This document shows, piece after piece, positions 2,615 to 43,815 of a DNA stretch of 64,000 nt (positions are counted from its first letter, which is position 1; every line of letters starts with the position of its first letter). The DNA is from a virus. The notes under the pieces are model-generated. The model saw only the letters and a program-made list of their open reading frames with translations, was not told the DNA's origin and searched no databases. The position numbers and the translations under genes were made by a program. The stretch is taken from the IMG/VR virus record IMGVR_UViG_3300021964_000012, positions 64,001 to 128,000 of that record; one strand, written 5' to 3'.

Positions 2615-3325
2615 ATGGCATACTGGGACAACCCTATAAAAACATATACCAACACAGTTCTTTCATACGAACGCGACTGTGATCCTATAGTACACAGTTC
2701 GCACGGAGGAGAACATTGTATATTTTTCCAACCCATGCTTCCAAAAGGTATTTTACAGTACCAACAGAAGTTAACAGATCTCTGTGATTGGGCAAACAAT
2801 CGCACTAATACTTTTACTGATCAGCCTGAAAATTTTTATGATATTGCAAATCTTGTTAAACTTAATCTATGGGTCACAGACATAAGAACACAAGGCATTG
2901 TTAAACCTTTGTTACTTGCATATGTAGAAGAAGATAAACCTTACCTAATCAACAATGGTGAAAGTAGACTGAGATGCTTGGAAATAATTCCTGAAGTTAA
3001 AACAGTGGATTGTTTTATAACCACTCATAGACGTCATGCTGATCGATTTCGAGCATTGCCACAAATTGAAAATTTTTCACAGTACGCAGAAATCTGTAGA
3101 GCTGAGATTGGACAACAGTTTCAATTTAGATTTACTGATCGTAATGCACCCTACGGTATAGATTGGTATGAAACCAACAGTCAAAAGACTGGTCAATTAA
3201 TGCTTTCACAAGAAGAATGTAGATTACTAATTAAAAATTATCTTAGAGAACACCCATTGGTAGTGTTTTCTCCAGACTGGTTTTCAACAGCAGTTGACTG
3301 GGATCTTTATAGAAAGAATCTGTAA
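2615..3325 (+). CDS. ParB/sulfiredoxin-like domain protein
   Basis: One of only two plus-strand genes in the window; 236 residues. The middle holds GIVKPLLLAYVEEDKPYLINNGESRLRCLEII, split here as a GIVKPLL strand, a polar hairpin and the NNGESRLRCL helix. This matches the ParB/Srx fold, where the motif is normally GERRxxA. In phages such domains occur in DNA-binding, nuclease or scaffolding proteins; no HNH or helix-turn-helix is obvious here. Its 3' end overlaps the end of the convergent asparagine synthetase gene by 83 bases, and both protein tails look genuine. Function unknown. Confidence 0.6.
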   Translation: MAYWDNPIKTYTNTVLSYERDCDPIVHSSHGGEHCIFFQPMLPKGILQYQQKLTDLCDWANNRTNTFTDQPENFYDIANLVKLNLWVTDIRTQGIVKPLLLAYVEEDKPYLINNGESRLRCLEIIPEVKTVDCFITTHRRHADRFRALPQIENFSQYAEICRAEIGQQFQFRFTDRNAPYGIDWYETNSQKTGQLMLSQEECRLLIKNYLREHPLVVFSPDWFSTAVDWDLYRKNL

Positions 3326-4757
3326 CTGCATCACGCCATTGCGTATTTCTATTTGTATCGCTAACTTTTACATTTAAATAAGGCAAACTATCGTTGCAAT
3401 GTCCACTAAAACCTTTTTTGGGCCATATATGTGATTCTTTCCAATGTTCTAAAAACAAATCTCTAATCAATGGCTTTGGGAATGTGCCTACTTTATATTC
3501 GAAAGGTAAATTAAGTGCAAATTGCATAATTGGTCTTGCAAGAAACGGGTTACGTGCTTCTATGCCAAATGCGCCTGCAATAGTATCCACACCTCTTATA
3601 TCGCATCCTGAAATTTGATGCCAATAGTCAGCAAGTAATGTGGCTTGTCCTGGATGCTGATTGTAACTATCTAAACACCATTTCCATAATGGAGAACCGT
3701 TACTGTATGGACTGTTGTTATTGTATTTTAATGTTTGATATATATTATAGCCACCAAACAATTCGTCGGCACCAGCACCAGTGAATAACACACGTTGTTT
3801 ACAATTTTTTGCTATTGCCCATTGACCAACAAAACTCCAACTTTGTACAGGCATTTTAGTTCGTGCAATTACATCAATAAAATCTCGTGCCCAATCTTCG
3901 TTGTTAATATGCAATTGATTAAGACGAGACATTTGACTGCCAGTCAAAAAGTCTTCGATATGATCTACAATTGGGTCTTTGCCAATCATGTTTGTTGTGT
4001 ATAATTCTGCACTATCCAGTTCAGCGAGAATAATACTACTATCCATTCCGCAACTATATGTCAGTGCATGATTGCATTGGGGTGTCATTTGACTAATAGT
4101 TTGCTTCCACAAAGCACCAAACTCTTCTCTTGCTTCTTGATAGGTGCAAGACTGAGGACGAATCCAATTCCATAGCATGTCTATTGGATTAGTAATTGTA
4201 CCGTCACGATATTCCCATCCTGGTATTACTCTTGTTATACCCTGATAAGGAGTTTGCTCTAGCATGGTCCAATGTCTAGTATTATAGGTTTGTTTTACTT
4301 TAGTGCAGTCAATGTATTCAAGTATAGGGGCAACTTCACTACACACTATTAGTATATCTTTATCTTTATACTGGTATAATGTTTTTTCGCCTTGAGGGTC
4401 AGCAGCATATCTCACAGTTTTTTTATCAGTCCAGGCCCATGCCCATGGACCCCAACCTTGAGCCAATAGTTTTGAATTTATGTTTACACATTCATCTACA
4501 AACTCTATATCATTAGAATAACTACCAATGTCTTTATAGTTGTATATTTCGCCATTGTATGCTAGAAAGTTTTCGTGAGAATGTTTGTAGTATTCATCTG
4601 AACCGGTTATGTGCAGTATAGCCTGTGCAATAAAAATATTATCGCTATGTTGATACCTTACACTGTCTGGCCCTCGGCTTTTCAATATATCAAGGGCTCG
4701 ATGATGTTGTTCTATAGGTAGTTTTTCTTTGCTTTTGACTAATAAGATGCCACACAT
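3243..4757 (-). CDS. asnB: Asparagine synthetase, glutamine-hydrolysing (AsnB-like)
   Basis: Converts aspartate, glutamine and ATP to asparagine. It has 504 residues against about 550 for the bacterial enzyme. The N-terminal glutaminase begins with Met-Cys2 (nucleophile after Met removal), has LKSRGPDS near 25-32 and AYNGEIYNY near 66-74. The synthetase domain has a PP-loop near residue 235 that reads SCGMDSS, so the first Gly of SGGxDSS is Cys, and GADELFGGY further on. It follows the SHMT gene directly (stop and start adjacent) and ends the metabolic run starting at 9091. Some relatives amidate sugars or peptides, so a glycan role is an alternative. Confidence 0.88.
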   Translation of the reverse strand: MCGILLVKSKEKLPIEQHHRALDILKSRGPDSVRYQHSDNIFIAQAILHITGSDEYYKHSHENFLAYNGEIYNYKDIGSYSNDIEFVDECVNINSKLLAQGWGPWAWAWTDKKTVRYAADPQGEKTLYQYKDKDILIVCSEVAPILEYIDCTKVKQTYNTRHWTMLEQTPYQGITRVIPGWEYRDGTITNPIDMLWNWIRPQSCTYQEAREEFGALWKQTISQMTPQCNHALTYSCGMDSSIILAELDSAELYTTNMIGKDPIVDHIEDFLTGSQMSRLNQLHINNEDWARDFIDVIARTKMPVQSWSFVGQWAIAKNCKQRVLFTGAGADELFGGYNIYQTLKYNNNSPYSNGSPLWKWCLDSYNQHPGQATLLADYWHQISGCDIRGVDTIAGAFGIEARNPFLARPIMQFALNLPFEYKVGTFPKPLIRDLFLEHWKESHIWPKKGFSGHCNDSLPYLNVKVSDTNRNTQWRDAVTDSFYKDPSQLLLKTSLEKTLPMGVL

Positions 4758-5897
4758 TTACTTTAGCAATTCGCAAATTTTATGTGCAATGGACTTAAAA
4801 TCTTTTTCTACTAAACCTCGTGTGGTTTCAGCGGCAGTTCCTATTCTTATTCCTGATGTTTCAACAAAGTTACGTGGATCGTTTGGCACACCGTTCTTGT
4901 TAACAGTAATACCATGCTCTTCTAGTATGTCTGCAGCCTGTCTACCACTGTGTTTACTTTTGCTTAGATCCATCAGTATGATATGACTGTCTGTACCACC
5001 AGTCTGCACTGGAAATCCTTTAGATTCAAATACTGTACACATTGCTTGAGCATTTTTTACAACCTGATCAGCATACTGTTCAAAACTAGGAAGTAATGCT
5101 TCACTATAACACTGTGCTTTCGCTGCAATAATATTCATGAGGGGACCGCCCTGTGTTCCTGGAAAGATTGCACTGTTTATACGACGAGTGTAATCAGGAT
5201 TGTTCCACAGTATCATTCCGCCTCTTGGTCCACGTAGTGTTTTATGTGTGGTGCTGGTAACAACATCTGCAAAAGGCAATGGTGATCCATATACACCACC
5301 TGCAACCAGTCCACTGTAGTGTGCCATGTCAACTACAAGAATAGCACCAACACTTTCAGCAATGTCTTTAAAAGCACTCCAGTCTATCTGCCTTGGATAT
5401 GCACTTGCACCTGCTACAATTACTCGTGGCATATTTAAACGTGCTATGCCTTCGATCTTATCGTAGTCGAGGAAACCATGATCGTCTACTCCATAGGTCA
5501 CACTATTGTAAACTTTACCACTAAGTGTAGGCGAAGCACCATGTGATAGGTGTCCGCCACTTGCTAGATCCATGCCCATTAGAACATCACCGGGTTTCAT
5601 AAATGCTTGATAAACGGCAGTATTTGCATTAACACCTGAGTGTGGTTGAACATTTGCAAATTCACAATCGTATAATTCGCAAACCTGTGCTATTGCTAAA
5701 CTCTCAATGACATCCATATTTTCGCAACCGTTGTAGTAACGTTTGCCTGGATAACCTTCAGCATATTTGTTGGTGAATACACTGCCACATAGTTCCATTA
5801 CGGCTTCACTTGCAAAGTTTTCACTGGCTATTAGTTCAAGAGTATCTTTTTGTCTGCCAAATTCTTTTGTAAGAATGTATCTAATATCTGGATTCAT
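4758..5897 (-). CDS. glyA: Serine hydroxymethyltransferase
   Basis: PLP enzyme interconverting serine and glycine with transfer of a one-carbon unit to tetrahydrofolate. Clear family signatures: LELIASENFAS near residue 20, NKYAEGYPGKRYYNGC, VDMAHYSGLVAGG, and the PLP-lysine motif VVTSTTHKTLRGPRGG. It is 379 residues, about 35-40 shorter than the E. coli enzyme, with the loss at the C-terminus; all catalytic motifs are present. It lies between asnB and the L33-like gene with 0-2 base gaps. Likely role: one-carbon units for dTMP or purine synthesis during infection (inference). Confidence 0.93.
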   Translation of the reverse strand: MNPDIRYILTKEFGRQKDTLELIASENFASEAVMELCGSVFTNKYAEGYPGKRYYNGCENMDVIESLAIAQVCELYDCEFANVQPHSGVNANTAVYQAFMKPGDVLMGMDLASGGHLSHGASPTLSGKVYNSVTYGVDDHGFLDYDKIEGIARLNMPRVIVAGASAYPRQIDWSAFKDIAESVGAILVVDMAHYSGLVAGGVYGSPLPFADVVTSTTHKTLRGPRGGMILWNNPDYTRRINSAIFPGTQGGPLMNIIAAKAQCYSEALLPSFEQYADQVVKNAQAMCTVFESKGFPVQTGGTDSHIILMDLSKSKHSGRQAADILEEHGITVNKNGVPNDPRNFVETSGIRIGTAAETTRGLVEKDFKSIAHKICELLK

Positions 5898-5898
5898 A

Positions 5899-6102
5899 CT
5901 ACTTGCTATGACTTGGCATTTTGGTTTCTATAAACCAAACATGCTTTTGTAATTTAGGATGATATTTTTTTACACGTATCTTTTTACCTTCACGTATCAT
6001 ACTCACAGTTTTGTGTGCTAGGTAATGATAGGTTGCGTTCTCACGTTTTTCGCCTTCAGGTATCATCCATGCTTTGGAGTCTTTATTTTTTTTAGCTGCC
6101 AT
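5899..6102 (-). CDS. rpmG-like: Ribosomal protein bL33-like
   Basis: A 67-residue basic protein. Its second half reads GKKIRVKKYHPKLQKHVWF then IETKM, which lines up with the C-terminal half of bacterial L33 (KxEIKKYDPxxRKHVxYKEAK), and the preceding ATYHYLAHKT matches the L33 GTGxFYTTxKN segment. L33 lies near the E site of the 50S subunit. There are no zinc-binding cysteines, as in the Cys-less L33 type. The first 20 residues are a non-conserved extension. Recognition is by motif only, so a homologous fold with another role is possible. It overlaps the upstream oxygenase gene by 11 bases. Confidence 0.6.
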   Translation of the reverse strand: MAAKKNKDSKAWMIPEGEKRENATYHYLAHKTVSMIREGKKIRVKKYHPKLQKHVWFIETKMPSHSK

Positions 6103-6628
6103 CTACTGTTCCTGTTATTGTCATTGTACGTCTTATCTCTACACCTGCATTCACACCACTGTGTAGTATTTTCTGCCAAGGTGTAATGTCAAACACATCG
6201 CCTGCACTGTAGTTAGTTACAACTTGATCATCACCCATAAAAAGTGCATGTCCCATTTTATAGTCACCACAGGGTATCCAAAGCCTTTTTATGTCTCTGT
6301 TTACCCATCTATACTTTTTCCGTGACTGTGTATATGCATCAACATGAGGTTCAGTAAAACTTGCAGGTGGCAGTTCAATTATCCTGATAAGTGTTTTTCC
6401 AGTGTATCCTTCTGATGCTAAAAATCCGTCTGGTAACCATGTATGGAACGTATCGCTGGTATAACAATGATGGGCACAGTTATCAGTGTTGTAATATTTT
6501 TCACCATTGGCTATCATCTGTCTAAGAGTAATGTGTGGAGCCGGCTTACGGACACAACCATCTTCACGGTTTAGTCTATCATTAAACCAAACCCAATCAA
6601 TATCCAGTTTATTATGCGGCTTCAGCAA
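6092..6628 (-). CDS. Fe(II)/2-oxoglutarate-type oxygenase, tandem copy 3
   Basis: A 178-residue protein with the double-stranded beta-helix iron site: EPHVDAY (HxD) in the middle and ILHSGVNAGVEIRRTM near the end (distal His and the 2OG-binding Arg). It is a clear paralogue of the next two genes upstream (LDIDW near the N-terminus; KRLWIPCGDYKMGH; AGDVFDI). The start is a TTG at 6628, preceded by a good Shine-Dalgarno (GGAG, 6-base spacing) inside the end of the previous gene. These proteins resemble aspartyl or prolyl hydroxylase-like enzymes; the substrate is unknown. Confidence 0.7.
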   Translation of the reverse strand: MLKPHNKLDIDWVWFNDRLNREDGCVRKPAPHITLRQMIANGEKYYNTDNCAHHCYTSDTFHTWLPDGFLASEGYTGKTLIRIIELPPASFTEPHVDAYTQSRKKYRWVNRDIKRLWIPCGDYKMGHALFMGDDQVVTNYSAGDVFDITPWQKILHSGVNAGVEIRRTMTITGTVDGS

Positions 6629-7169
6629 CTTCTTCTCCGGTAACAGTCATAACTCTGCGTGTCTTTGTTCCAATATTAAATGCACTATGCATTATGTTCT
6701 GCGGAAATTCAAAAACATCGCCTGCTTTATAGTCAATCACAACTTGTTTCTCAACACAAAGCACATGTCCAAATTCATAGTCCATACAAGGAATCCAAAG
6801 GCGTTTTACTCTAGCATCCTTAGCCAATCCAAACTTGCGTTTGGCACTATTATATGTGTCCATGTGAGGCCATGTGTTTGTTCCTGGCGGATGTTCAAGT
6901 ATTTTTATAAGCACATTAGTTTCGCTTATTCCATTACGTTTCAAGAAGCCTTCAGGAAGTAGTGGTACAAATGTGTGTGACTCATACATAATTTTTTGTG
7001 CATTTAGTTGGTTAAGAATTGATTGTAGCTCATTGGGTATCTGTTCATAGCCTTCTTTATCGTACACATTTTCTAACAAAGCACCTCTGCTGACTTCAAC
7101 ATCCACTCTGTTGTCTAGTTGTTCGTTAAATGCTTCCCAATCAATATCTAATCGATCTTGTTTTAGCAA
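6612..7169 (-). CDS. Fe(II)/2-oxoglutarate-type oxygenase, tandem copy 2
   Basis: 185 residues. HxD in WPHMDTY, distal His and Arg in IMHSAFNIGTKTRRVMTVTG, and the family core VKRLWIPCMDYEFGHVL plus YKAGDVFEF. N-terminal LDIDWEAFNEQLDNR matches the other two copies. The start is TTG at 7169 with an AGGAG Shine-Dalgarno seven bases upstream, within the end of copy 1. Downstream copy 3 overlaps by 17 bases. Hydroxylase activity is inferred from the metal-site residues; the target is unknown. Confidence 0.7.
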   Translation of the reverse strand: MLKQDRLDIDWEAFNEQLDNRVDVEVSRGALLENVYDKEGYEQIPNELQSILNQLNAQKIMYESHTFVPLLPEGFLKRNGISETNVLIKILEHPPGTNTWPHMDTYNSAKRKFGLAKDARVKRLWIPCMDYEFGHVLCVEKQVVIDYKAGDVFEFPQNIMHSAFNIGTKTRRVMTVTGEEVAEAA

Positions 7170-7738
7170 ACTTCAACTCCTCTAAAGCCTTTGCGGTCTA
7201 TTGCTTCGCCAGTTACTGTAATTATTCTACGTGTTTCAACTCCAAGGTTACCAGCACTATGCAGTATGTCACCGGGTATCTCATACACATCACCTGCTTT
7301 ATAATCGGTCATAATAAAATCATCACCAACACAAAGTATATGTCCAAACTTATAGTCGGTGCATGGTATCCATAATCTTTTTACTGGGCCGTCCTCAGCT
7401 AGATCAAATTTTTCTTTTGTGATATGATACCCATCTAAGTGGGGTTGTGTTACAACTCCTGGTTCATGCTCAAGAACTTTTATTATAACACGACCATCCA
7501 TACCTACTGTGGGCCAGAAATCTTTTGGAAACATATCAATAAAGTCATCGCTTACGTATTCTGTATAAATGCAAGTTGCTTTATCATAATGATGTTCATT
7601 TACTTTGTAGTTGTTGTCATATGTTTCTTGTTTTAGTGGCCAGTTATATTCTGTTGGCTTTTTAACTACACCATCAATATTGTCAATTCTGGCATTGAAT
7701 GCTTGCCAATCAATATGCAAGTGCCCTATTTTTTCCAT
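7163..7738 (-). CDS. Fe(II)/2-oxoglutarate-type oxygenase, tandem copy 1
   Basis: 191 residues and an ATG start. HxD in QPHLDGY, distal His and Arg in ILHSAGNLGVETRRIITVTG, and the core VKRLWIPCTDYKFGHIL plus YKAGDVYEI. N-terminal LHIDWQAFNARIDN matches copies 2 and 3. It is the first of three adjacent paralogues and follows the PP-loop gene by 9 bases with a GGAG Shine-Dalgarno. The three copies have diverged mainly in the segment between the N-terminal helix and the iron site, which suggests different substrates (inference). Confidence 0.7.
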   Translation of the reverse strand: MEKIGHLHIDWQAFNARIDNIDGVVKKPTEYNWPLKQETYDNNYKVNEHHYDKATCIYTEYVSDDFIDMFPKDFWPTVGMDGRVIIKVLEHEPGVVTQPHLDGYHITKEKFDLAEDGPVKRLWIPCTDYKFGHILCVGDDFIMTDYKAGDVYEIPGDILHSAGNLGVETRRIITVTGEAIDRKGFRGVEVC

Positions 7739-7747: not shown

Positions 7748-9091
7748 CTATGTTTTATATAATTTAATAAGTTCGTTTGCAAGTTTTTTATCACTTAATT
7801 TGCTTATCTCTCTTATGTGCCTATCACCAACACGATTGATCTTTTGTTTGAAACCCTTGTATTCTACTTCAGAATAGTCTACACCTTGATGTTTAACAAT
7901 ACTTGTATCTTCAAACCCATTTGGTATAAGTTCCTGTTGGCTATATATTTCTAATTTATCTATATCAATAAACCAAGCAAACTTGCCTTGGCTTGTCAAT
8001 GGTACAAAGCCTGTGCGACATTCAGGAAATATTTCAAAAAACCTTTCCATACAACGTGCATATTTACTTACTATATCCCATCTATCTGCGACTATAAAGT
8101 TTCCTTTTTCCATTGGGTACTTTGCGTTTTTTCCTAATTTTTTATCTGCATTAAATATTTCAGGCCGAGAAATTACATAATTTAAGTGATCTTGATCGTA
8201 AAATTTAAAAAAGGATAAGGTATTTGTTAAATCAAACTTTTTGTTGGCTAGTATATACTCTCGAAATAGTCTACTTTCTTTAATTAATGTTTTAACATTT
8301 CCTGGATGAGCCCAAAAGTAAATTGTATTCAACAAACCACCTCTATCATTCATTGCACTGTCAAGAAACGTAACGTACCAGCTATTTTTATAATAGACCA
8401 ATTGAGGTTTGTCTTTGCCAATGATAAAGCAACCCAGTGGGTCCATATCTAATTTTTGATCTAAATTTGTAGGCACACCATAATCATAAGGTGTTGCTCC
8501 ATTGTAAAAATTTTCAATTTGTAACGAGCTCATCGGCTCAATTATTGTACCACATTGTGGGCGTTTGAAAATTGCATATTCGTCTGAGAAATGTTCGAGT
8601 AATTCGTCCTCATGTTGATACAAAAAAGTTTGCTTATCTATTTTATCACGATATTTGTAAAGGCTAGGAAACGCATTTTCTCTGTACTCTTCATTCATGT
8701 TGTCATCAGTTTCAGTGAAAAAATGCATAACAGTCTCATCTACGCGAATATTGTTTTCAACAAAATCTAACAAAATTCTTTGACTGTCATAGCCGCCACT
8801 GTATAGTAAAGCAACATGTTTATATTCTTTTTTAAGTCTTTTTATAAAATCCAAACTATAGTTGTAATCCATGTCAAGAGTTTTGTCTGCAAGTGCATTT
8901 CTAAACTCATCCATTAGTGCTGGTGCACATACAAACGGCAACCAACAATCAAACACTTTTTCATACCATTTTACTAGGAACACGTTACCTAATCGTTTGC
9001 CGTCAGGAGTTTCCCAGTAGAAAGAGTAATTCATCTTTCGTGCTTGGCGGTTACCTAGTTCTACAAGTTCTAATAATTTTTCTTTAGACAT
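7748..9091 (-). CDS. PP-loop ATPase, asparagine-synthetase-like domain without glutaminase
   Basis: 447 residues. The ATP-pyrophosphatase loop LLYSGGYDSQRIL lies near residue 97 (SGGxDS). No MCG glutaminase start and no CxxC zinc site, so it is neither complete AsnB nor QueC. PP-loop enzymes adenylate a carboxyl, carbonyl or base before amination or thiolation. The long C-terminal part is not recognisable. It heads the run of oxygenases, L33-like protein, SHMT and AsnB, and starts 27 bases past the terminator hairpin of the transporter gene, so part of its transcription may be read-through. Function unknown. Confidence 0.6.
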   Translation of the reverse strand: MSKEKLLELVELGNRQARKMNYSFYWETPDGKRLGNVFLVKWYEKVFDCWLPFVCAPALMDEFRNALADKTLDMDYNYSLDFIKRLKKEYKHVALLYSGGYDSQRILLDFVENNIRVDETVMHFFTETDDNMNEEYRENAFPSLYKYRDKIDKQTFLYQHEDELLEHFSDEYAIFKRPQCGTIIEPMSSLQIENFYNGATPYDYGVPTNLDQKLDMDPLGCFIIGKDKPQLVYYKNSWYVTFLDSAMNDRGGLLNTIYFWAHPGNVKTLIKESRLFREYILANKKFDLTNTLSFFKFYDQDHLNYVISRPEIFNADKKLGKNAKYPMEKGNFIVADRWDIVSKYARCMERFFEIFPECRTGFVPLTSQGKFAWFIDIDKLEIYSQQELIPNGFEDTSIVKHQGVDYSEVEYKGFKQKINRVGDRHIREISKLSDKKLANELIKLYKT

Positions 9092-9117
9092 CTTAAGTTC
9101 TTTGTAAATGCAGAAAT

Positions 9118-9144
9118 AGTATGACGAGCAGCACTCGTCATACT
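9118..9144 (-). terminator. Hairpin terminator after the binding-protein gene
   Basis: Perfect 11-base inverted repeat (AGTATGACGAG / CTCGTCATACT) with a 5-base loop, 27 bases past the stop of the periplasmic binding-protein gene. On the minus strand it is followed by ATTTC, a short U-rich stretch. This fits an intrinsic terminator, perhaps leaky. Confidence 0.7.
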
Positions 9145-9170
9145 ATAAAGTTTCGATTGATCAATAAGAT

Positions 9171-10133
9171 CTATTGTAGTTTACCAGCTTTCCAGTTGTT
9201 CACTGTATCAGCTTTAACACCACCTGGCATCCAATCAGCAGCATCTTTCCACCAATCTTCTAAACCAAGACCTCTTTTTTCCAATTCAGCTGAAGTTGGA
9301 ATAAAAGCAGTACCATAGTACTTCTTAAGGTCTGCATCGTTAGACATCATGTCACCAATAACAGCTTTAGCATCTGCTTTTTGAGCTTCATTTAGTTTAA
9401 TACCAAATACAACTGGAAATTCAACCAATGAACTTAATCCCCAATTTGGGAAAATATCAGCAAATTTAGCAGTACCGTTTACGCCACCTGTTGTAGCAAA
9501 ACAGTTTAGATCTGGTGTATTGATTTCTCTTGCAGTATAACCCAAGTACATTAGGTCAGTATCACCTGCTAAGAAACCTTTAAGTGTATTTGAAGAACCG
9601 TTGTATGCAACCTTCTTCCACTTGTTTCCAAACTGTTTTCCTAAGTCGGAGAAGTCATCTGGTAAGTTGTTAAAAGTACCAATTGTAACACGATCTTTTG
9701 CTTTGATCCATGCCATAATGTCTTTCAAGTCTGAACCGATATTGTCTGACTTACGAACACACATTGCATTTGATCTGTAAAAGAAAGGAGTTACATAACT
9801 AACGTCTTTGGTAACTTCTGGTGCAATAAAGCACTTCTTTCTAACTACATCACTAATCCATGATGATCCAGACTTAAAGTAAAATCCTGGACGGTCTGTA
9901 CCAGCAATGTATTTTTTGTTTTTAAAACAGTTAGCAGTATGTACTAACTTACTGTCATAACCTCTTTCTGTAAGAGCTTTCTGTAACATAACACCCTGTT
10001 TCCAGTTGTTACCTGTGTTAGAAGAAGCAACGATAACATCGAGGATCTTCTTTTCTGCCATTGCAGGACCAGAAACTCCTGCAAAAATTGTAAGTGCTAC
10101 TAGTACAGCACTTAGTCTTGATAGTAAGGTCAT
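9171..10133 (-). CDS. Periplasmic solute-binding protein, TctC/Bug-like
   Basis: 320 residues with a classic signal peptide: LSRLSAVLVALTIFAGVSG then AMA cleavage near residue 27. The mature part resembles tripartite tricarboxylate transporter (TTT) receptors: an N-terminal Rossmann-like VIVASSNTGNNWKQG strand-loop and the YNGSSNTLKGFLAGDTDLMY segment that corresponds to the TctC hinge motif. Four cysteines suggest disulfides in the periplasm. Its neighbour encodes a TctA-like membrane subunit, which supports the call. It has its own sigma70-type promoter and a terminator. It is a divergent member; the ligand (normally a carboxylate) cannot be read from sequence. Confidence 0.7.
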   Translation of the reverse strand: MTLLSRLSAVLVALTIFAGVSGPAMAEKKILDVIVASSNTGNNWKQGVMLQKALTERGYDSKLVHTANCFKNKKYIAGTDRPGFYFKSGSSWISDVVRKKCFIAPEVTKDVSYVTPFFYRSNAMCVRKSDNIGSDLKDIMAWIKAKDRVTIGTFNNLPDDFSDLGKQFGNKWKKVAYNGSSNTLKGFLAGDTDLMYLGYTAREINTPDLNCFATTGGVNGTAKFADIFPNWGLSSLVEFPVVFGIKLNEAQKADAKAVIGDMMSNDADLKKYYGTAFIPTSAELEKRGLGLEDWWKDAADWMPGGVKADTVNNWKAGKLQ

Positions 10134-10169
10134 ATATTTTTCTCCATAATTATGTTTAACCTATGTTGC

Positions 10170-10197
10170 ATTGTACAACACTTTAAGATGTTGTCAA
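10170..10197 (-). promoter_or_regulatory. Sigma70-type promoter for the binding-protein gene
   Basis: On the minus strand TTGACA (10192-10197), a 16-base spacer, then TACAAT (10170-10175), about 37 bases before the ATG at 10133. A GGAG Shine-Dalgarno lies between. Five of six bases match in the -10 box and all six in the -35. Confidence 0.75.
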
Positions 10198-10216
10198 CCT
10201 TTGTTTTGGTTTTTTT

Positions 10217-11626
10217 CTAACCAAAATGTAAATTATATAATACGTTCGAACTCATCAATAGTTTATCTTGCAATATAAATGCAATTAAAAGTATTAGTGT
10301 TTCAGTTCTACGTAAAATATAGCCTAGTGGCAATAACAATACCATTACGGTAAAGTGATACCACATGTCGTATTGTTGGAAACCTGTGTACAACACAAGC
10401 CCAACCAGTATGGCACCAGTAGCATATATCATGTGTACCATGTTAAGTTTTTTAAGAACATTAACATATTTCACTGCTGGCCAACACAATATGACTGCTA
10501 CCATATTAATAAAGACAAACCAATAGGTAAGTCTTTCAAAAAAGTTTTGTTCAATACTAATTCTCCAATTGATTACATAGCTGTTCATTTCAATTAGACT
10601 TATTAGTATGGTTTCACTAGGACTCATTGGAATACCAATCAGCATCAACGGCAACAACAATACTAATGTACAACTGTTGTTGGCAGTTTCAGCACTTATG
10701 AGTGATTTCATGTGTCCGTCTTCTCGATAGCTACCTTCCTTTATAGCACGTTTCTTTTCCACTGCATAACTGAAGTTACTTGCAATACCTGTACCAATGT
10801 GCGGTACCAATCCAACAATTGCTCCAAATATACTACCACGTATGCTGGCCCATTTGTTTTGCCACCAATGTTTAAAATGTACCATTGGCGAGCTATCGTC
10901 AAAGTAGTCTTTGTCGTTTTCATATTTGAAGTCTTTGAACTGTTCCACAGTGTTAAGCAATGTAGGAAACACATAAAGTGCTACCACCACTGGAAACAAT
11001 GGCAAGCCTTCGTATAAACTTGGGAAAGTGTCGTATGGAATAAAGCCTTCGCCGAAGATAAAAAATGGAACGTTGTGTTGTCCTATGAGTCCTAGTGCGG
11101 CTCCGAGTATAAAGACAACTCCATTTTCTCGCCAACTGCGTCCTAATAAGAATACCACACTACAAGTTGCAATCCACAGTATGCCAAACTGTATTTCTGC
11201 ACTATAAAAGTTCATTAGGCCGTGGATAACAAATGGAAGCACTGCAAAGATCACACAAACGGAGATGAACGATCCAAACACACTTCCAATTGCAGCTCCA
11301 CTTATTGCAAAGTTTCCTTGCCCACGTTCGAACAATCGTTTACCTTCTCGTACGGCTGGTAAACTACTGGATTCGCCTGGTATTCCAAACACTGTTGCAA
11401 TAACACTGCCACTGAACTGCGAAACACTTGCCAAGCCAAGATAAAATACCAACATTTGAAAGAGAGTTGACTCCATAAGAAATGGGTAAAGCATGAACAA
11501 CATTATAGTATTGCCAATACCAGGGATTAAGCCAGCTAAAAAGCCTGCAAGGATACCACCCATCACATGGATAAAATCTATCCATTCAAAAGAGCCTACA
11601 ATGTGTACAACACCATCGTCGATCAT
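10217..11626 (-). CDS. tctA-like: TctA-like membrane subunit of a tripartite tricarboxylate transporter
   Basis: About 469 residues and ten or more hydrophobic segments. Near the N-terminus it has GGILAGFLAGLIPGIGNT, the TctA signature G-x-x-x-G-x-x-PGxG, and later TVFGIPGESSSLPA, matching the TctA GIPG(T/S) repeat. The start at 11626 (MIDDGVV) is chosen because AAGGA lies 6 bases upstream; a start 20 codons earlier has no such site. No TctB gene is visible beside it; the last 60 residues contain extra membrane segments. With the binding protein downstream it would make a secondary carboxylate uptake system in the inner membrane. A transporter of this type is unexpected in a phage. Confidence 0.8.
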   Translation of the reverse strand: MIDDGVVHIVGSFEWIDFIHVMGGILAGFLAGLIPGIGNTIMLFMLYPFLMESTLFQMLVFYLGLASVSQFSGSVIATVFGIPGESSSLPAVREGKRLFERGQGNFAISGAAIGSVFGSFISVCVIFAVLPFVIHGLMNFYSAEIQFGILWIATCSVVFLLGRSWRENGVVFILGAALGLIGQHNVPFFIFGEGFIPYDTFPSLYEGLPLFPVVVALYVFPTLLNTVEQFKDFKYENDKDYFDDSSPMVHFKHWWQNKWASIRGSIFGAIVGLVPHIGTGIASNFSYAVEKKRAIKEGSYREDGHMKSLISAETANNSCTLVLLLPLMLIGIPMSPSETILISLIEMNSYVINWRISIEQNFFERLTYWFVFINMVAVILCWPAVKYVNVLKKLNMVHMIYATGAILVGLVLYTGFQQYDMWYHFTVMVLLLPLGYILRRTETLILLIAFILQDKLLMSSNVLYNLHFG

Positions 11627-11654
11627 AATCAATCCTTTACTAATAAAAATACTC

Positions 11655-11693
11655 TTAACAGTAACACAGATAGGTCTGTGGTTCAACTGTTAA
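11655..11693 (-). promoter_or_regulatory. Nested inverted repeat upstream of tctA-like gene
   Basis: Outer arms TTAACAGT / ACTGTTAA and inner arms CACAG / CTGTG around ACCTAT. On the minus strand a run of five T follows 5 bases later, so it can end transcription from upstream. It also overlaps a weak promoter-like pair (TTGAAC, 17 bases, TACTGT), with the inner repeat filling the spacer as an operator would. Either reading is possible; it is 28 bases before the tctA start. Confidence 0.5.
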
Positions 11694-11839
11694 CTTTACC
11701 TTTATTGTGAATTCGACTAGTGAAATAGAGCTGGGCGTTCTTGTTAAGTAAAGGCGTTAGCCAGGCGTCCGTTGTTGCTCGCGTCTTAGATGGCGCTGTC
11801 GATGTGAATATTTAGTGGGTGTGTCTATTAGGGTGTAAT

Positions 11840-12073
11840 TTATATGGCTTGTCTTTTGGTTCGATAATACATTACCTGGTTGGTATCTAAGCACTGAAAC
11901 CTCATGCCATTGTTTGTTGGTGCTATACTTTGAATGTCGTTGATAACACTTGGATTTTCTGTGAGATATTGTATGCATGCAGGTCTAGTTTTAAAACTAT
12001 CCTGCATGAGTTGCACTTCAATTCTATCAGTGTTAGGAAATGAAATAAATGCTACAATAAACCATTCTAGCAA
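11840..12073 (-). CDS. Small protein with hydrophobic N-terminus and a Cys pair
   Basis: 77 residues starting at a TTG that immediately follows the TAA of the upstream gene. The N-terminal LEWFIVAFISF is hydrophobic and is followed by a polar domain with two cysteines (RPACIQYL and RFQCLDT). Layout and size match the gene at 50465 (MNWLLVALV, then DECKTY and IRCFHT) and the upstream gene. Probably exported or membrane-anchored with a disulfide (inference). Function unknown. The 146 bases after it, up to the inverted repeat at 11693, hold no gene that I can support. Confidence 0.55.
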   Translation of the reverse strand: MLEWFIVAFISFPNTDRIEVQLMQDSFKTRPACIQYLTENPSVINDIQSIAPTNNGMRFQCLDTNQVMYYRTKRQAI

Positions 12074-12074
12074 T

Positions 12075-12284
12075 TTATTTTGCTTCTTCTTTGGTAAGAG
12101 CTAGTTTGTAACAAACTTTTTTTCCTTGAACACTATCTATTGTAATAGCTGGCACGTCTGCCTTTACTATTCTGCATTTTTCAAGTTCGTGCCATTTATA
12201 GCCTGCCTGTTTTTGTGCTTCTACTGTTCGATTGAAATCTGCATTGTCAACAGAAAACAATAATGCTAGTATTAATAATGCCAT
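12075..12284 (-). CDS. Small secreted-type protein with a Cys pair
   Basis: 69 residues with a short signal-like start (MALLILALLFSVDNA) and two cysteines (EKCRIVK and KKVCYKL). ATG preceded by AGGA at 8-base spacing. It is followed after one base by the TTG of the next small gene, which has the same layout. The pair may be periplasmic or inner-membrane effectors, or modulators of the adjacent transporter; this is a guess from location. Unrecognised family. Confidence 0.6.
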   Translation of the reverse strand: MALLILALLFSVDNADFNRTVEAQKQAGYKWHELEKCRIVKADVPAITIDSVQGKKVCYKLALTKEEAK

Positions 12285-13076: not shown

Positions 13077-13104
13077 ATTATAACAAATAATCAGCAAAAG
13101 TCAA
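13077..13104 (-). promoter_or_regulatory. Extended -10 sigma70 promoter in a divergent gap
   Basis: Minus strand TTGACT (13099-13104), 16 bases ending in TGT, TATAAT (13077-13082). The TGn element just before the -10 makes it an extended -10 promoter. It serves the gene starting at 13043, and its -35 box touches the start of the divergent plus-strand gene at 13104. Confidence 0.7.
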
Positions 13105-13619
13105 TGGATAAAATGTTACTCACAATTGGTGATAGTTTTACATACGGAACAGAACTTCTTGACATCAGTCTGTCCTGGCCTTATCAACTAGGTGCAAGAC
13201 TTGGTATGCCAGTGGTAAATCTTGCACAACCTGGAGCAAGTAATGATTATATTGTACGAACCACTGTGAATGCTATCAATGAGTACAATCCTGATCTTGT
13301 GATTGTAGGGTTTACAACGCCTAATAGATTTGAACTTAATTGGGAACACTATACACCAACTAAAACACCAAATTACTTTGACAATTGGAATGAAGAATGG
13401 GCAGAGAACAAGTTTCATACTCAGGTTTGTGTACTAGAGAGCTATATCAAATGCAAAAACTATTTCTTAGGTCCATGGGATTGTGATATAAGCTATTGTA
13501 GTAATTACATTGGTACTTTAGTTGAAATGTGTGAAGGTTTTGATAAAGGTTCTGGAGGACATCCACTGGTACAAGGCCACACCGTAATAGCAAAAAAAAT
13601 ATCAGAAATTATTGGCTAG
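13104..13619 (+). CDS. SGNH/GDSL-like hydrolase (plus strand)
   Basis: 171 residues, compact, with all four SGNH blocks: IGDSFTYG near residue 8 (Ser nucleophile), NLAQPGASNDYI (Gly and Asn), and GGHPLVQGH near the C-terminus (catalytic His; the usual Asp is replaced by Gly-Gly). Two possible ATG starts lie 3 codons apart and neither has a strong Shine-Dalgarno. A plus-strand TATAAT at 13068-13073 may be its -10. The 3' end overlaps the convergent gene by 18 bases. Probably an acyl-ester hydrolase; substrate unknown. Confidence 0.7.
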   Translation: MDKMLLTIGDSFTYGTELLDISLSWPYQLGARLGMPVVNLAQPGASNDYIVRTTVNAINEYNPDLVIVGFTTPNRFELNWEHYTPTKTPNYFDNWNEEWAENKFHTQVCVLESYIKCKNYFLGPWDCDISYCSNYIGTLVEMCEGFDKGSGGHPLVQGHTVIAKKISEIIG

Positions 13620-15974: not shown

Positions 15975-16003
15975 ATTATAACACTAGATAAGTTTATTGT
16001 CAA
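15975..16003 (-). promoter_or_regulatory. Consensus sigma70 promoter for RNase H
   Basis: Minus strand TTGACA (15998-16003), 17 bases, TATAAT (15975-15980): both boxes perfect. It lies across the 3' end of the SGNH gene that stops at 15984 and 28 bases before the RNase H start. Confidence 0.85.
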
Positions 16004-16685
16004 CTATATACTTTGTGAGATATTGTGCCCATGCTCTGTGTCCATTTGTTCCATAATGGTAGCTTGCTGGGCTTACAGTTTCGCATTTTTGTGATACAAC
16101 TGCATCGAATGTGTTTGCTGGATTATAGGGACCAATAAAACTTGAGCCCCAATCTTTTTGTATTTCTATTTTACTAAAGTCATTGTTGCCGTTAAAGAAA
16201 ATATGTTTTGCTCCAAGAGACTCAAGTTCTAGATGAAATTGCCAAATTTTATCGTGTGCTTCACTGGTTTTCTTTTTCCAATCAACGTTTGCTACATATT
16301 CTTTGTATTTTTGTTGATGGCTGTCAGGCACATCATCTATGCCACTAGCATTTATCTGATAGTATGCACCATCTATCAGCCATTCTTCTCTTTCCCAAGT
16401 GCTCCACTGAATAACATAAAGTGTTCTGTAGATGTCTTTTGCTTGTTGTTCTAGCCATCGACGTGTAGTTCTCATAATACGATCGTTAGAACTCGCACTT
16501 TCAGCCTCACACTTGAAACCACAATTCAACCTGTTGCTCAGTAGTTTACCCCAAGAATGTGCAATGTTATCGGGATGTGGAACTCTACCCATCATCCAGT
16601 ACTGTGGATCATCTTCAGCAAAAGCATGATTATTCACACATTCAGCGGCCGCAGTATGCGAATCTCCGTTAACATATAGTATCAT
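15984..16685 (-). CDS. SGNH/GDSL-like hydrolase, GDSH subtype A
   Basis: 233 residues. Block I YVNGDSHTAAA at the N-terminus, block II region ESASSNDRIMRTT near 80, a WSTWEREEW helix shared with the next gene, and the final YHYGTNGHRAWAQYL (His). It is a close paralogue of the gene at 16682. The first loop carries an insert of about 40 residues that the paralogue lacks. No signal peptide. Likely a sugar O-acyl esterase-like enzyme; substrate unknown. Confidence 0.68.
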   Translation of the reverse strand: MILYVNGDSHTAAAECVNNHAFAEDDPQYWMMGRVPHPDNIAHSWGKLLSNRLNCGFKCEAESASSNDRIMRTTRRWLEQQAKDIYRTLYVIQWSTWEREEWLIDGAYYQINASGIDDVPDSHQQKYKEYVANVDWKKKTSEAHDKIWQFHLELESLGAKHIFFNGNNDFSKIEIQKDWGSSFIGPYNPANTFDAVVSQKCETVSPASYHYGTNGHRAWAQYLTKYIVDNKLI

Positions 16686-17308
16686 ATAAGTTTGTTTTCT
16701 CTAATGTAATCGATTAAAAATTCAGCCCACACTTTGTGGCCATCAGCTTCATAGTGATACCATTTGTCTGGACGTAAACCTTTGTTTTTGAGATACCAGT
16801 AATAACTTTGATTGTTATCATATGGACCTACGAATTTGTTGTTCCAGTCATACTTTTTGTTTTTATTAACCTGAAAATGCAAAAACAAATCATACATGCA
16901 ATTGAAGAACAAATGCGTAATGTTTTTATGTTCTAGTTCAAGATGAAAACTATAGATGCGTTTGTGCCATTCTCTAGCCTTTTCCATCCATAAATCAGGC
17001 GTTTGTTCAGTTACCCACTGTTTGTACTTGCTTTGAAGTTCCTTAGGTATACTGTCTGTTCCGCTTGCGGTTACTGTGTAGTATCTGTCATTGTGTAACC
17101 ATTCTTCACGTTCCCAGGTGCTCCATCCAATTACAATAAAGTCTGGTGTTGAGTGCTCTAAATATTCCTGTGTGCGTCTAATGATGCTTGAATTGCTACT
17201 ACCACCTTGTGCTTGGTTTATTAAATTGAATCCAAATTCTTTTGCAACAATACCTGCATAACTAAAATCTGGAGCAGTATGTGAATCGCCGTTGGCATAT
17301 AAAATCAT
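16682..17308 (-). CDS. SGNH/GDSL-like hydrolase, GDSH subtype B
   Basis: 208 residues: YANGDSHTAPD at the start, QAQGGSSNSSIIRRT (Gly/Asn blocks), WSTWEREEWL near 80, and C-terminal YHYEADGHKVWAEFLIDYI. Tandem duplicate of the following gene with a 4-base ATGA overlap between them. The shared WSTWEREEW region marks a subfamily not found in the other SGNH genes here. Catalytic Ser/His are present; activity and substrate are inferred. Confidence 0.68.
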   Translation of the reverse strand: MILYANGDSHTAPDFSYAGIVAKEFGFNLINQAQGGSSNSSIIRRTQEYLEHSTPDFIVIGWSTWEREEWLHNDRYYTVTASGTDSIPKELQSKYKQWVTEQTPDLWMEKAREWHKRIYSFHLELEHKNITHLFFNCMYDLFLHFQVNKNKKYDWNNKFVGPYDNNQSYYWYLKNKGLRPDKWYHYEADGHKVWAEFLIDYIRENKLI

Positions 17309-26662: not shown

Positions 26663-26690
26663 ATTATAGCAGTTTATGAGCAAATGTCAA
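26663..26690 (-). promoter_or_regulatory. Consensus sigma70 promoter for the HIT-queD-clpP operon
   Basis: Minus strand TTGACA (26685-26690), 16 bases, TATAAT (26663-26668), both perfect, 26 bases before the HIT start. The -35 box overlaps the stop codon of the upstream oxygenase gene (26687-26689). Confidence 0.85.
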
Positions 26691-27547
26691 CCATAACTTT
26701 GACTTAATCGCCACATTAGATATTCTTTTGATTCAATTGGGTCGTAATGGTTTGGTTCTTTTAGTAGATTTTCAACTATTGTGCCTGGTTCAGGATCCAC
26801 AAAGTGTGGCATACTGTATCTTGGTAAATGACAGTAACTGTTTTCTACTCTATGACGTGTGCTTTTGAAGTAGTCGTTTGTCCAACGTTGTAGTAGGTCG
26901 CCAATGTTAACAACAACTCCATTCCAAACATATGGCACGGCATGCCATTTGCCATCTAAATCTTCAACTTCTAGTCCTGGCACACTGTCAAGTTGCCATA
27001 AGAGTGTAATAGTGCCATAGTCTGAATGTTCGCCAATACGTAGCATTCTATCTTCAGTTGGTTTCATTGCTGGATAATGTATAACTCTAGTTGTGTTATA
27101 AGGACGTCTATGTGCATCTACCAGTGTAGTGCCCGAATCTAGTATTAGATCAAATTTATGCAGTATGTCCAATGTAAGTCTATCTGCAATGTCAATTGAT
27201 TGCAGTGCAAGTTCTTTAAAATTTTCTATATCAGTAGGCCAAAGTTCATCTGGCATACGAGTGTTGTTGTAGTTGAAACTTTCTTTCATATCTTTAGGAG
27301 CAGTAGGGTCTACATTTTCTGCGCCTACTATGCTATAGCCTAAATTGTTTTCTGCTTGATATTTGTATTTGTTTTTTGTGTCTTGATCTTGATCAAAAAA
27401 ATCTTGCATTAGTTCCCACCAAGATTTCATATCACTTTGATCTTTGTTGTTAAGTGCATGTTGAAAGACTGCAAAGCCTACTGTGGTGTAGGCTTCGCGA
27501 ATCTCTTCCAGTATGTTTTTACTATTGTAATCAATAACTGGAATCAT
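26687..27547 (-). CDS. Fe(II)/2OG dioxygenase, isopenicillin-N-synthase-like
   Basis: 286 residues. N-terminal IPVIDY and VGFAVFQHAL match the N-terminal domain of the plant/fungal-type dioxygenase family (DIOX_N). The iron site is GEHSDYGTITLLWQ (HxD) with STRHRVEN (distal His) and RYSMPHFVDP (Arg-x-Ser for 2-oxoglutarate). Motifs are complete, so it should be active; substrate unknown. A different family from the tandem trio at 6-7.7 kb. It lies between the BMP protein gene and the HIT operon promoter. Confidence 0.85.
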   Translation of the reverse strand: MIPVIDYNSKNILEEIREAYTTVGFAVFQHALNNKDQSDMKSWWELMQDFFDQDQDTKNKYKYQAENNLGYSIVGAENVDPTAPKDMKESFNYNNTRMPDELWPTDIENFKELALQSIDIADRLTLDILHKFDLILDSGTTLVDAHRRPYNTTRVIHYPAMKPTEDRMLRIGEHSDYGTITLLWQLDSVPGLEVEDLDGKWHAVPYVWNGVVVNIGDLLQRWTNDYFKSTRHRVENSYCHLPRYSMPHFVDPEPGTIVENLLKEPNHYDPIESKEYLMWRLSQSYG

Positions 27548-27549: not shown

Positions 27550-28617
27550 TTAGTTCCCTGGCACTTTAGCATCAATACCTTCAACATAGTACATCATGCT
27601 GTTGAGGTGAGCATCATCAGCAATTTCTCCAGCTTTTAACTGAATCTTTCCTGTGTTGTCTTTGATAGGACCTGTAAATGCAAAGTATTTGCCGGTCTTG
27701 ATACTATCTTTGATCTTTTGTGCAAATGCTTTTACGTCTGCTGGCATGTTTGTGAATGGAGCCATTTGTACTACGTCATCATTCATATGTCCAAAGTAGT
27801 CACCTGATTTCCAGTTACCATCAATTACTGCTTGTACTTTACTAATGTAGTAAGGTGACCAGTTATCGATTGTTGCAGTTAACTGAGCCTTTGGTGCAAA
27901 TTTGTATTGATCACTTGCTTGGCCAAAACCAAGTACACCTGCTTTTTCAGCAGTTTGTAGTGGTGCTGGTGAATCAGTGTGTTGTGCAACCATATCACAA
28001 CCTTCAGCAATCATAACGTCTGCAGCCTGTGCTTCTTTACCTGGATCATACCATGTGTTTACCCATACAATATCAATGTCAATATCTGGATTAACAGTCT
28101 TAGCACCTAGGTAGTAAGTGTTAATTTCACGAATAACTTCAGGTATCGGAAATGCGCCAACATAACAAATTTTATTTGTCTTAGTCATTAATCCAGCAAT
28201 AACACCTTGTACATGTCTTGCTTGATATAATCTTAAACCATAAGTTGCCATGTTTTTACTACGTTTGTAACCAGTAGCATGTTCAAATTTTACATTTGGA
28301 AAATCTTTAGCAACCTTTAGCATAGGCTCCATGTAACCAAAACTTGTTGCAAATATAATATCTGCACCTGATTTTGCCATGGCTCTAATAGCTCTTTCAC
28401 TATCAGGGCCATACTTTACATTTTCCAAATATACTGTTTCCACTTTGTCTCCAAAGTGCTTTTCAACATCTAATCTTCCGATGTCATGTCTGTAGGTCCA
28501 TCCATGGTCACCAATTGGTCCAACATAGATAAAACCTACTTTGATTTTGTCTCCAGCATGTGCAACACTGAAAAACATAACTGACAGTAATACTGCCAAT
28601 AATTTTAGAACGTTCAT
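27550..28617 (-). CDS. BMP-family (PnrA-like) periplasmic binding protein
   Basis: 355 residues with a signal peptide (LLAVLLSVMFFSVAHA, cleavage near residue 22, no lipobox Cys). Mature part: KVGFIYVGPIGDHGWTY, IFATSFGYMEPMLKVAKDFPNVKFEHATGY and GQASDQYKFAPK are strong matches to the BMP/Med/PnrA family, which binds purine nucleosides or related molecules for ABC importers. No ATPase or permease gene lies beside it, so it would have to work with a host importer. It shares the direction and possibly the transcript of FolE. Confidence 0.9.
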   Translation of the reverse strand: MNVLKLLAVLLSVMFFSVAHAGDKIKVGFIYVGPIGDHGWTYRHDIGRLDVEKHFGDKVETVYLENVKYGPDSERAIRAMAKSGADIIFATSFGYMEPMLKVAKDFPNVKFEHATGYKRSKNMATYGLRLYQARHVQGVIAGLMTKTNKICYVGAFPIPEVIREINTYYLGAKTVNPDIDIDIVWVNTWYDPGKEAQAADVMIAEGCDMVAQHTDSPAPLQTAEKAGVLGFGQASDQYKFAPKAQLTATIDNWSPYYISKVQAVIDGNWKSGDYFGHMNDDVVQMAPFTNMPADVKAFAQKIKDSIKTGKYFAFTGPIKDNTGKIQLKAGEIADDAHLNSMMYYVEGIDAKVPGN

Positions 28618-34718: not shown

Positions 34719-35162
34719 TTAGTAACTTACGCAACAACCATTTTCTCCATCTTCACTGACTTCAATGGTTACGGCCCTTCCTGGGTATTTATTAGCTATT
34801 TGCAAATACAAATCATCCGCTATCATCTCACAGGACTTGTAGTCCAGCTCAAGCACTCCAGTGTCACCGTGTCCTTCACTTCCGTCCGGTACCATATCAT
34901 ACAATCGTTGTAGCCAACGTTTGAATTGTATAAATTCAATTTCTCTGTCGTCATGGAATACTTCGATTTGCACCCTGAAATGGAAAATATGACGATGAGG
35001 ATAACCAAGAAACGATACATCATCCCAACCTCCTGTTGCTAGTTTTGGATCATCCAATGCCGCTGGATACTTGTGAATACCTTCACGTTTAAAGGTTACC
35101 CAAATCTGCCTGGAGGCTTTGTCTTTTGCATTTTCAACGGCTTCACGTTCTGCTTGTATCAT
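34719..35162 (-). CDS. Phage protein, possible T-fold (PTPS-like) family
   Basis: 147 residues. WVTFKREGIHKYPAALDDP, then FLGYPHRHIFHFRVQIEV with HDDREIEFI, and LDYKSCEMIADDL and VTIEVSEDGENG. The HRHxFxFxVxIEV strand with a later SCEMIADDL helix recalls the QueD/PTPS tunnelling fold, where His ligands and a Glu bind zinc and pterin. I cannot assign a reaction. It overlaps the SGNH gene upstream by 4 bases and shares its promoter. Confidence 0.5.
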   Translation of the reverse strand: MIQAEREAVENAKDKASRQIWVTFKREGIHKYPAALDDPKLATGGWDDVSFLGYPHRHIFHFRVQIEVFHDDREIEFIQFKRWLQRLYDMVPDGSEGHGDTGVLELDYKSCEMIADDLYLQIANKYPGRAVTIEVSEDGENGCCVSY

Positions 35163-35947
35163 ATTAACTCCTTGTAAAGTAAAGGATACCTTTTTTCTAT
35201 GGTATCTAATACGTTATCGCATATCATTTTGTGTCCTTCAGGACTAGGATGCCCAGGATGTAATCCTTTGTCATCATCAATATGATTGTACACTAAATCA
35301 CTCCATGGGTCAAGTACCAATTGCCACTCGTCAAATTTTGTTTTAAAAAAATTAAAAGCCGCAACGTATTCATGTGTTGAATAGTCATCAATATCCGCAC
35401 CTGTACTTCTTACCCAAGCATTTGGATCCTTGTCTATGTCTTGATATGCAGTTGCAAGATCATACTTAGCATTAGGTGAAGACCAACTGTTAAAAAATAT
35501 TACAGGACAGTTGAAATAGTTAGTAGCAAGTTCGTATATCTGCCATATTTGATTGAACATTTGGTATATGTATTCAACTTCGTCGTATACATCGTCTACA
35601 AAAAAAGCAAGCAATTTATTTTCATTAGTGAAATCACGATGAAATTTTACATCATTTTTCTTAGCAAATCTATCATTGATTATACCATGTCCTATATTCC
35701 AACTAGAGCCCATCTTACTTGGTAAATGCCAACGTGAATGTACAGTCAATCCTATTAAGATAAGTTTTGGTTTAGAATTTGTATGATATAATTTATAAAG
35801 GTTACTTAGAATTCTACTATTACTTCCACAACCAGCAGCCTGATTTATAACCTTACATTTAACACGTGATTGCAATACACAAGGCCAACTGTAATCAGGA
35901 TCTATATTACTACGTTGTGACCAAGAATCACCATTGACATAAATCAT
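35159..35947 (-). CDS. SGNH/GDSL-like hydrolase, GDSW subtype
   Basis: 262 residues. VNGDSWSQRSN (block I), NQAAGCGSNSRILSN (block II/III), and GLHPGHPSPEGHKMI near the C-terminus (block V His). The second position after Ser is Trp, unlike the GDSH pair at 16-17 kb, but the fold markers are the same. Probable esterase on an unknown glycan or lipid. Co-transcribed with the gene at 35944 from a perfect promoter. Confidence 0.68.
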   Translation of the reverse strand: MIYVNGDSWSQRSNIDPDYSWPCVLQSRVKCKVINQAAGCGSNSRILSNLYKLYHTNSKPKLILIGLTVHSRWHLPSKMGSSWNIGHGIINDRFAKKNDVKFHRDFTNENKLLAFFVDDVYDEVEYIYQMFNQIWQIYELATNYFNCPVIFFNSWSSPNAKYDLATAYQDIDKDPNAWVRSTGADIDDYSTHEYVAAFNFFKTKFDEWQLVLDPWSDLVYNHIDDDKGLHPGHPSPEGHKMICDNVLDTIEKRYPLLYKELI

Positions 35948-43021: not shown

Positions 43022-43815
43022 TATTTGTTTAGTCCATTCGTACAGTAAGGTATTAGTATTTCTTGTGTCCAAGCAAGATCTCCATCAGGTGAAGGATGGA
43101 AGTCGTCATCAGATATAAGCATTCTTTTTACACAAAAACTATATATGTCTTGCATTGGGTCCATAATAGCAGTATAAGTCTCTTTGATTGAATCTGGTAA
43201 AAATTTTACAATATTAAAATTTTCACTGCGATTAGGAACAGATGGATCTAAAAAATCAACAAATATTGACCGATAACCACTAGCATCAAGATATTTTTTC
43301 AATTGTATTTTCCAAATTGCATTTTCAACCGCTCTTGATTCAAAACTCTTGTATTTGTGTATGTCTCGATAACCCCACCAATTTAATGTTATATCGCCTT
43401 CACGACTTGCACCTCCAGTTGATCCATGACACACATTATCTGTATAATTATAAACAAAATTTGCATTTTTGTCAACTGCGTCGGCTGAAAAAATTGCATC
43501 TTCACGATCATGTCCAGACCACATAACTACTACCATAGTCTGATCTGGTGATAATTTAGAGTTTTCTAATCCCCATACTATACTTTTTGAAATGAAATTA
43601 TTGCCAGCACCAGGCATAGCACAAGAATAGACTTCATTGAATCCTGCAAGATCTCTAAAGTAGTATGGCCAACTAACAGGAACTTGGGTAGGATTAGTGT
43701 AGGTAAAACTACATCCACCTACCACAAGATTTTCAAAACCAAGATCTATAACTTGATCAAATTGTTTTGATACTTTCTGTGTTTGCATAGACTGTATATG
43801 GATAACACGATCCAT
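43021..43815 (-). CDS. SGNH/GDSL-like hydrolase, GCSF subtype
   Basis: 264 residues. VGGCSFTYTNP (block I with Cys in place of Asp before Ser), SCAMPGAGNNFI (block II/III), a VVVMWSGHDRED strand, and DDDFHPSPDGDLAW (Asp-x-x-His, block V). The last site is complete, so it may be an active esterase despite the altered block I. It sits in the replication operon between dsbA and polymerase, and TAATG couples it to gp43. Substrate unknown. Confidence 0.68.
   Translation of the reverse strand: MDRVIHIQSMQTQKVSKQFDQVIDLGFENLVVGGCSFTYTNPTQVPVSWPYYFRDLAGFNEVYSCAMPGAGNNFISKSIVWGLENSKLSPDQTMVVVMWSGHDREDAIFSADAVDKNANFVYNYTDNVCHGSTGGASREGDITLNWWGYRDIHKYKSFESRAVENAIWKIQLKKYLDASGYRSIFVDFLDPSVPNRSENFNIVKFLPDSIKETYTAIMDPMQDIYSFCVKRMLISDDDFHPSPDGDLAWTQEILIPYCTNGLNK

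Follow-up and report, generated by a model that had tools for sequence, protein, structure and literature searches.

A TctA-type permease paired with a divergent TctC-like binding protein, without a detectable TctB, in a T4-like jumbo phage

TTT systems, such as TctABC of Salmonella and the Bug proteins of Bordetella, place a TctA-family permease beside an exported binding protein (SBP) of the TctC fold. TctA carries the motif G-Hy3-G-Hy3-G-Hy2-P-G-Hy-G in TM1 and in TM7 (Rosa 2018; PMC5812351). An accessory role has been proposed for TctB, and in archaea TctA mostly occurs by itself; this view is disputed by analogy with TRAP transporters (PMC5812351, PMC5898192). On the viral side, a study of SUP05 single-cell viral contigs lists tctA as a domain match of unknown role (Roux et al. 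2014, PMC4164917), and this observation was repeated in a 2019 review (PMC6359870).

We analysed a window of 64,000 bases (bases 64,001-128,000 of the 328,292-base IMG/VR virus record IMGVR_UViG_3300021964_000012) that encodes a TctA permease (TctA1) and an SBP (BP1). The pair resembles TctABC and the Bug systems in that a TctA-family permease stands beside an exported TctC-fold SBP, but it comes without TctB, its SBP falls below every family cut-off, and its permease is only 25-30% identical to the bacterial TctAs found and has PH for PG in the second TM motif. With the SUP05 contigs it shares a TctA domain on a marine viral contig, and 2OG-Fe(II) oxygenases are reported there too; in its excerpted text, however, the SUP05 report gives a single domain match and mentions no SBP, pair or TctB analysis (PMC4164917). 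Archaeal stand-alone TctA (arCOG04469) likewise occurs without TctB (PMC5898192), but the archaeal genes mostly lack an SBP too, whereas viral TctA is always near one. The pstS gene of marine cyanophages is also a phage-encoded periplasmic binding protein for nutrient uptake (PMC6359870), yet pstS provides the SBP only, for a host ABC transporter, whereas here the permease, a secondary transporter, is phage-encoded as well. We found no report of the permease-SBP pair, its lack of TctB, its prevalence or two such systems in one phage in the open-access literature, to which most subscription papers and preprints do not belong. What appears to be new is the two-part form and how widespread it is, along with the cryptic SBP lineage and the presence of two systems in one phage.

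The record encodes a T4-like terminase, portal, major head protein, tail sheath, baseplate wedge, DnaB helicase, SbcC and a family-B polymerase, and on the strength of these genes we identify it as a T4-like jumbo phage. An open frame of 4490 aa adjoins the baseplate wedge gene (L003:4933-18405). Many proteins of the record (in L004, L007, L008, L013 and L016) match the phage's radical-SAM protein at 22-27% identity, which suggests an expanded family of modification enzymes. The window also encodes an asparagine synthase-like protein beside a full serine hydroxymethyltransferase (3243-5897 (-); PF00464, 482 bits), a ferritin/Dps-like protein (54282-54725 (-)), a Clp-family AAA+ protein (61417-63711 (-); ClpB D2-small domain match) and scattered GDSL-like proteins, recognized by eye from an N-terminal GDS motif (13104-13619, 15984-17308, 35159-35947 and 43021-43815). 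A third nutrient-binding protein of the phage, an exported SBP of the Bmp/PnrA family (27550-28617 (-); PF02608, 188 bits), adjoins a 2OG-Fe(II) oxygenase (26687-27547), and no permease was seen beside it.

TctA1 (10217..11626 (-), 469 aa) scores 208 bits against the TctA family PF01970, for which the cut-off is 28.9, and the match covers positions 3-415 of the 423-position profile, in full agreement with a sequence-only reading that had described a TctA-like membrane protein here. The published motif (GILAGFLAGLIPGIG) is exact in TM1, and the copy in TM7 carries the single substitution of PG by PH in the window protein and in both near relatives; together with the family match, this is what is expected of a TTT (TC 2.A.80) permease. 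The frame is open upstream to a TTG at 11686, but the ATG at 11626 is the better start because the Shine-Dalgarno sequence AAAGGA precedes it and relatives use the equivalent ATG; in two other viral contigs TctA1 is 94-96% identical and its start is conserved. A TctA profile search found no solved TctA structure.

The neighbouring gene encodes BP1 (9171..10133 (-), 320 aa), which has a signal peptide (...PAMA/EKK, read from the sequence), as expected from its earlier description as a signal-peptide binding protein. BP1 has no match in Pfam, NCBIfam, PHROG or PDB sequences; PF03401 (TctC) does not match it even at E 10, nor does it match any other protein of the 328-kb record. BP1 therefore falls outside TctC at family thresholds, whereas remote homology and fold place it there. 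A profile built from bacterial TctCs scores it at 15.7 bits (E 3e-6 in a ten-sequence test), whereas shuffled sequences score below 0 bits. Against a background of about 264 proteins (the phage's own plus those of the divergent viral locus L105), a trimmed, unfiltered TctC profile ranks the SBP of the second pair described below (BP2), BP1 and the L105 SBP first, second and third, with an E of only 0.03 for BP1. Unfiltered profiles of the TRAP SBPs (DctP and TAXI) score BP1 at noise level, as they do BP2 and the L105 SBP, and we rejected that assignment.

When mature BP1 was searched with phmmer against 1966 proteins, the matches that followed near copies and one chance match were the TctA-adjacent SBPs of L211 (E 0.3) and L105 (E 1.1), weak values that are informative by rank. 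The L211 SBP has a bacterial TctC and BP1 as its best non-self matches, and L211 encodes a second, unmistakable TctC (phmmer E 1e-11) that adjoins a TctA of the same clade as TctA1. The chance match (L100, E 4e-4) is an unrelated-looking 488-aa frame from a bacterial genome among the 385 searched. An AlphaFold model of BP1 (pLDDT 59, pTM 0.48) has 4x9t (TctC), 2dvz and 2qpq (Bug27) as its top three PDB folds in Foldseek, a match that is partly circular because the alignment behind the model contained TctC relatives. A first AF2 model from two sequences had matched several periplasmic-binding-type folds and was set aside as too poor (pLDDT 37). On four partly independent tests, we assign BP1 to the TctC class of type-II periplasmic binding proteins, as a member that has diverged beyond the family models. 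Standard annotation overlooks such an SBP, and the pair is therefore easily under-counted as a lone tctA.

The sequence-only reading had seen no TctB, and a search for PF07331 at Pfam sensitivity found none in the whole 328-kb record, so that the subunit, separate or fused, that belongs to a TTT system is missing; the module called complete-looking in that reading is not complete as a classical TTT. TctA1 is unfused and has no neighbour with 3-5 TM segments, and no suitable gene of 100-220 aa with that profile lies near it. By a test of TM count, size and hydropathy, a fused or adjacent TctB-like gene accompanies none of 77 distinct viral TctAs, some with flanks cut short, as against about 19 of 31 bacterial TctAs (11 are long fusions, and a small protein with 3-5 TM segments is encoded next to about 8 others), many with flanks of only 1.5 kb. 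TctB is the least conserved part of TTT systems, and a very divergent TctB could for that reason be missed. The DUF6552 protein (2-3 TM) was considered as a general substitute and rejected, being near only 19 of the 77 viral TctAs and absent near TctA1.

The SBP gene is preceded by a sigma-70-type promoter (TTGACA-16-TACAAT, 10170..10197 (-)) with 11 of 12 consensus bases that is kept in three contigs, the equivalents in the other two being TTGACA-17-TATAAC and TTGACA-17-TATATT. In the divergent relative L105, TTGACT-17-TATAAT lies directly before the SBP gene. The 8-kb region scanned shows no overall excess of promoter-like sites over shuffles (35 versus 31), and so the case for this promoter rests on its near-perfect match, position and conservation; on these grounds the proposal that the SBP gene has its own promoter stands. 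The terminator proposed for the same gene fares less clearly. A hairpin with a 13-bp stem lies 3' of the gene (9116..9146 (-)), and the stem is conserved, with one pair compensated in L020 (A-U to G-C), but its T-run is poor and the terminator scanner did not list it. Likewise, only part of the claim of a structured element before tctA survives: a non-coding block of 140 bases (11700..11839 (-)) is 75-82% identical among three contigs and occurs before tctA1 only, with no further copy among the sequences fetched, but its predicted RNA fold is no better than shuffles (z -1.16), covariation is slight (3 of 22 pairs compensated in three sequences) and Rfam, searched for a riboswitch, gave no match. 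The block is a conserved leader or promoter region, and RNA structure is unsupported.

The gene that follows the SBP gene encodes a PP-loop protein (motif SGGxDS, here SGGYDS; 7748..9091 (-)). Relatives of this protein adjoin TctA in L105 (E 3e-12) and L211 (E 2e-7) and occur nowhere else among the 1966 proteins, so that TctA, SBP and PP-loop protein have been kept together in three divergent lineages. Three putative cupin/2OG-oxygenase-like paralogues come next (6092-6628, 6612-7169 and 7163-7738, all (-)); one has weak, below-cut-off matches to Cupin/Asp_Arg_Hydrox, and the order of the three is kept in relatives. Upstream of tctA1 lie two small genes of 77 and 69 aa (11840-12073 and 12075-12284, both (-)), 55-66% conserved in relatives, that have no Pfam match or multi-pass membrane profile and are not TctB-like. 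The order 227-aa gene, two small genes, tctA, SBP gene, PP-loop gene and three paralogues recurs, whole or partial where a contig ends, in other viral contigs (3300044674, 3300044723, 3300044246, 3300021375 and 3300025120), across which TctA1 is 94-100% and the SBP 89-100% identical. Between the window and 3300021375, dN/dS is 0.04 for tctA1 (dS about 1.1), 0.09 for the SBP gene and 0.12 for the PP-loop gene. TctA1 and the SBP are under strong purifying selection, and the low values for their genes show that both are functional.

The same phage carries a second pair, TctA2 (contig 162,614-164,053, L008) and its SBP, BP2 (contig 164,069-165,112), after which come a 2OG-oxygenase-like gene and the gene for a DUF6552 protein with three TM segments (cassette L008:14614-18019, contig 162,614-166,019). 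TctA1 and TctA2 are about 25% identical, and BP1 and BP2 show no similarity, either pairwise or profile to profile. The TctA2-BP2 cassette is common among IMG/VR contigs, where BP2 has 35 close relatives. From 288 viral matches to TctA in IMG/VR, 80 loci were retained. TctA alone served to fetch 59 distinct loci. In 58 of these a BP1- or BP2-type SBP lies no more than 3 kb away, and the remaining one, L105, has an SBP of its own; for all 77 distinct viral TctAs, part of which were fetched through their SBP, an SBP neighbour is present in every case (75 of BP1 or BP2 type, with L105 and L211 having their own). The gene order varies, with the SBP first in L105 and SBPs on both sides of TctA in L211. 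Among records of cultured phages no SBP match was found, and the TctA matches, only seven in all, were partial and distant and came mostly from records without annotation.

In a maximum-likelihood tree of 64 rows, the clade of the window, represented by L022 (94% identical), groups with L105 and L211 at a support of 100/100. This group stands outside both the main phage clade and the 23 bacterial sequences, on very long branches that leave its exact place unsure. The window pair belongs to a rare and very divergent clade made up of the window, L105 and L211. The main phage clade takes in three sequences from bacterial assemblies, namely marine bacterium B5-7, an Omnitrophota MAG and a Rickettsiales MAG. 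In the first (L098, contig C39, a bacterial MAG), a phage-type TctA and a BP2-type SBP lie near a gene pair that by eye resembles DsrMK, and a BP2 relative was found in 1 of 369 sampled genomes of its class. In the third (L063, Rickettsiales MAG MED657, a 47-kb contig), the gene content around TctA and the SBP looks phage-like, and the contig may belong to a phage and have been assigned to the bacterial MAG in binning. The bacterial TctAs found are 25-30% identical to TctA1, none closer than about 30%, and neither a pattern scan nor a search of 385 genomes of one class gave a credible bacterial relative of BP1.

We consider it probable that TctA1 and the SBP form a phage-carried TTT-type importer without TctB that works during infection. 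The SBP would be exported to the periplasm of the infected cell, capture a small, probably anionic organic solute there and hand it to TctA1, which would move the solute inward, presumably by symport with an ion gradient, to the likely benefit of the phage. Since its gene has its own strong host-type promoter, the SBP may be synthesized early in infection and in larger amounts than the permease. The two genes appear to be separate transcription units, and their presumed partnership therefore rests on conserved adjacency. We speculate that the imported solute feeds an amidation or ligation reaction of the PP-loop protein; alternatively, carboxylates such as 2-oxoglutarate may be imported as substrates for the 2OG oxygenases of the phage.

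The earlier proposal that the module alters carbon uptake, either as a two-part system or with a host TctB, gains good support for its phage TTT-type pair, and the two-part option is favoured because every viral TctA examined is without TctB. A two-part TTT is also plausible in view of the accessory role proposed for TctB, although disputed, and of the archaeal TctAs, the majority of which occur alone. The substrate may be a carboxylate, and the pair may change the carbon uptake of the host. It is unlikely that the phage TctA and SBP instead recruit TctB, or another host subunit, into a full three-part TTT. The marine bacteria sampled here do carry several TTT systems that could supply it, but the viral loci never bring a TctB although they bring an SBP every time, and the very poor conservation of TctB makes it less likely that one phage protein would fit the TctBs of various hosts. 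The characterized TTT systems have TctB (PMC5812351), whereas archaeal TctAs have been reported without it (PMC5812351, PMC5898192).

We think it quite unlikely that the two proteins are neighbours and not partners, the SBP serving host permeases as a replacement part in the manner of pstS and TctA1 acting alone as in archaea (PMC5898192). The separate promoters and the Bmp-type SBP without an adjacent permease in the same phage would fit such an arrangement, but TctA and SBP stand side by side in virtually all viral loci, a pattern that holds across two highly divergent lineages and despite exchanges of gene order. Modification of the host envelope is common among phages, and the pair might conceivably alter the cell surface, for instance to exclude other phages, or act as an exporter; we regard this as highly improbable, as SBP-dependent secondary transporters characterized so far are importers (PMC5812351) and the conserved TctA motif and tight purifying selection on both genes fit transport. 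That a bacterial sequence was mis-assembled into the viral contig is very unlikely and largely refuted, as the same gene order is found in viral contigs of several other metagenomes at 89-100% protein identity, no bacterial relative found is close, purifying selection is strong and phage terminase, portal, capsid, sheath and polymerase genes surround the pair, all of which upholds the phage origin first ascribed to the module.

More broadly, and tentatively, a two-component class of TTT importers that works without TctB may have evolved in marine phages themselves; it would comprise two or more deep lineages, of which one is associated with PP-loop enzymes. If true, this class would be a minimal functional TTT, a transport system shaped mainly within viruses. 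The viral pair also provides a natural test of whether TTT transport requires TctB. Similar pairs with no third part are found in dozens of related viral sequences, which suggests that these viruses nourish the infected cell and that the third part may be dispensable. Phage auxiliary genes are mostly enzymes and, in transport, single SBPs. Because many marine viral contigs, and one jumbo phage twice over, encode a complete permease together with an SBP, viruses may directly set the solute uptake of infected cells.
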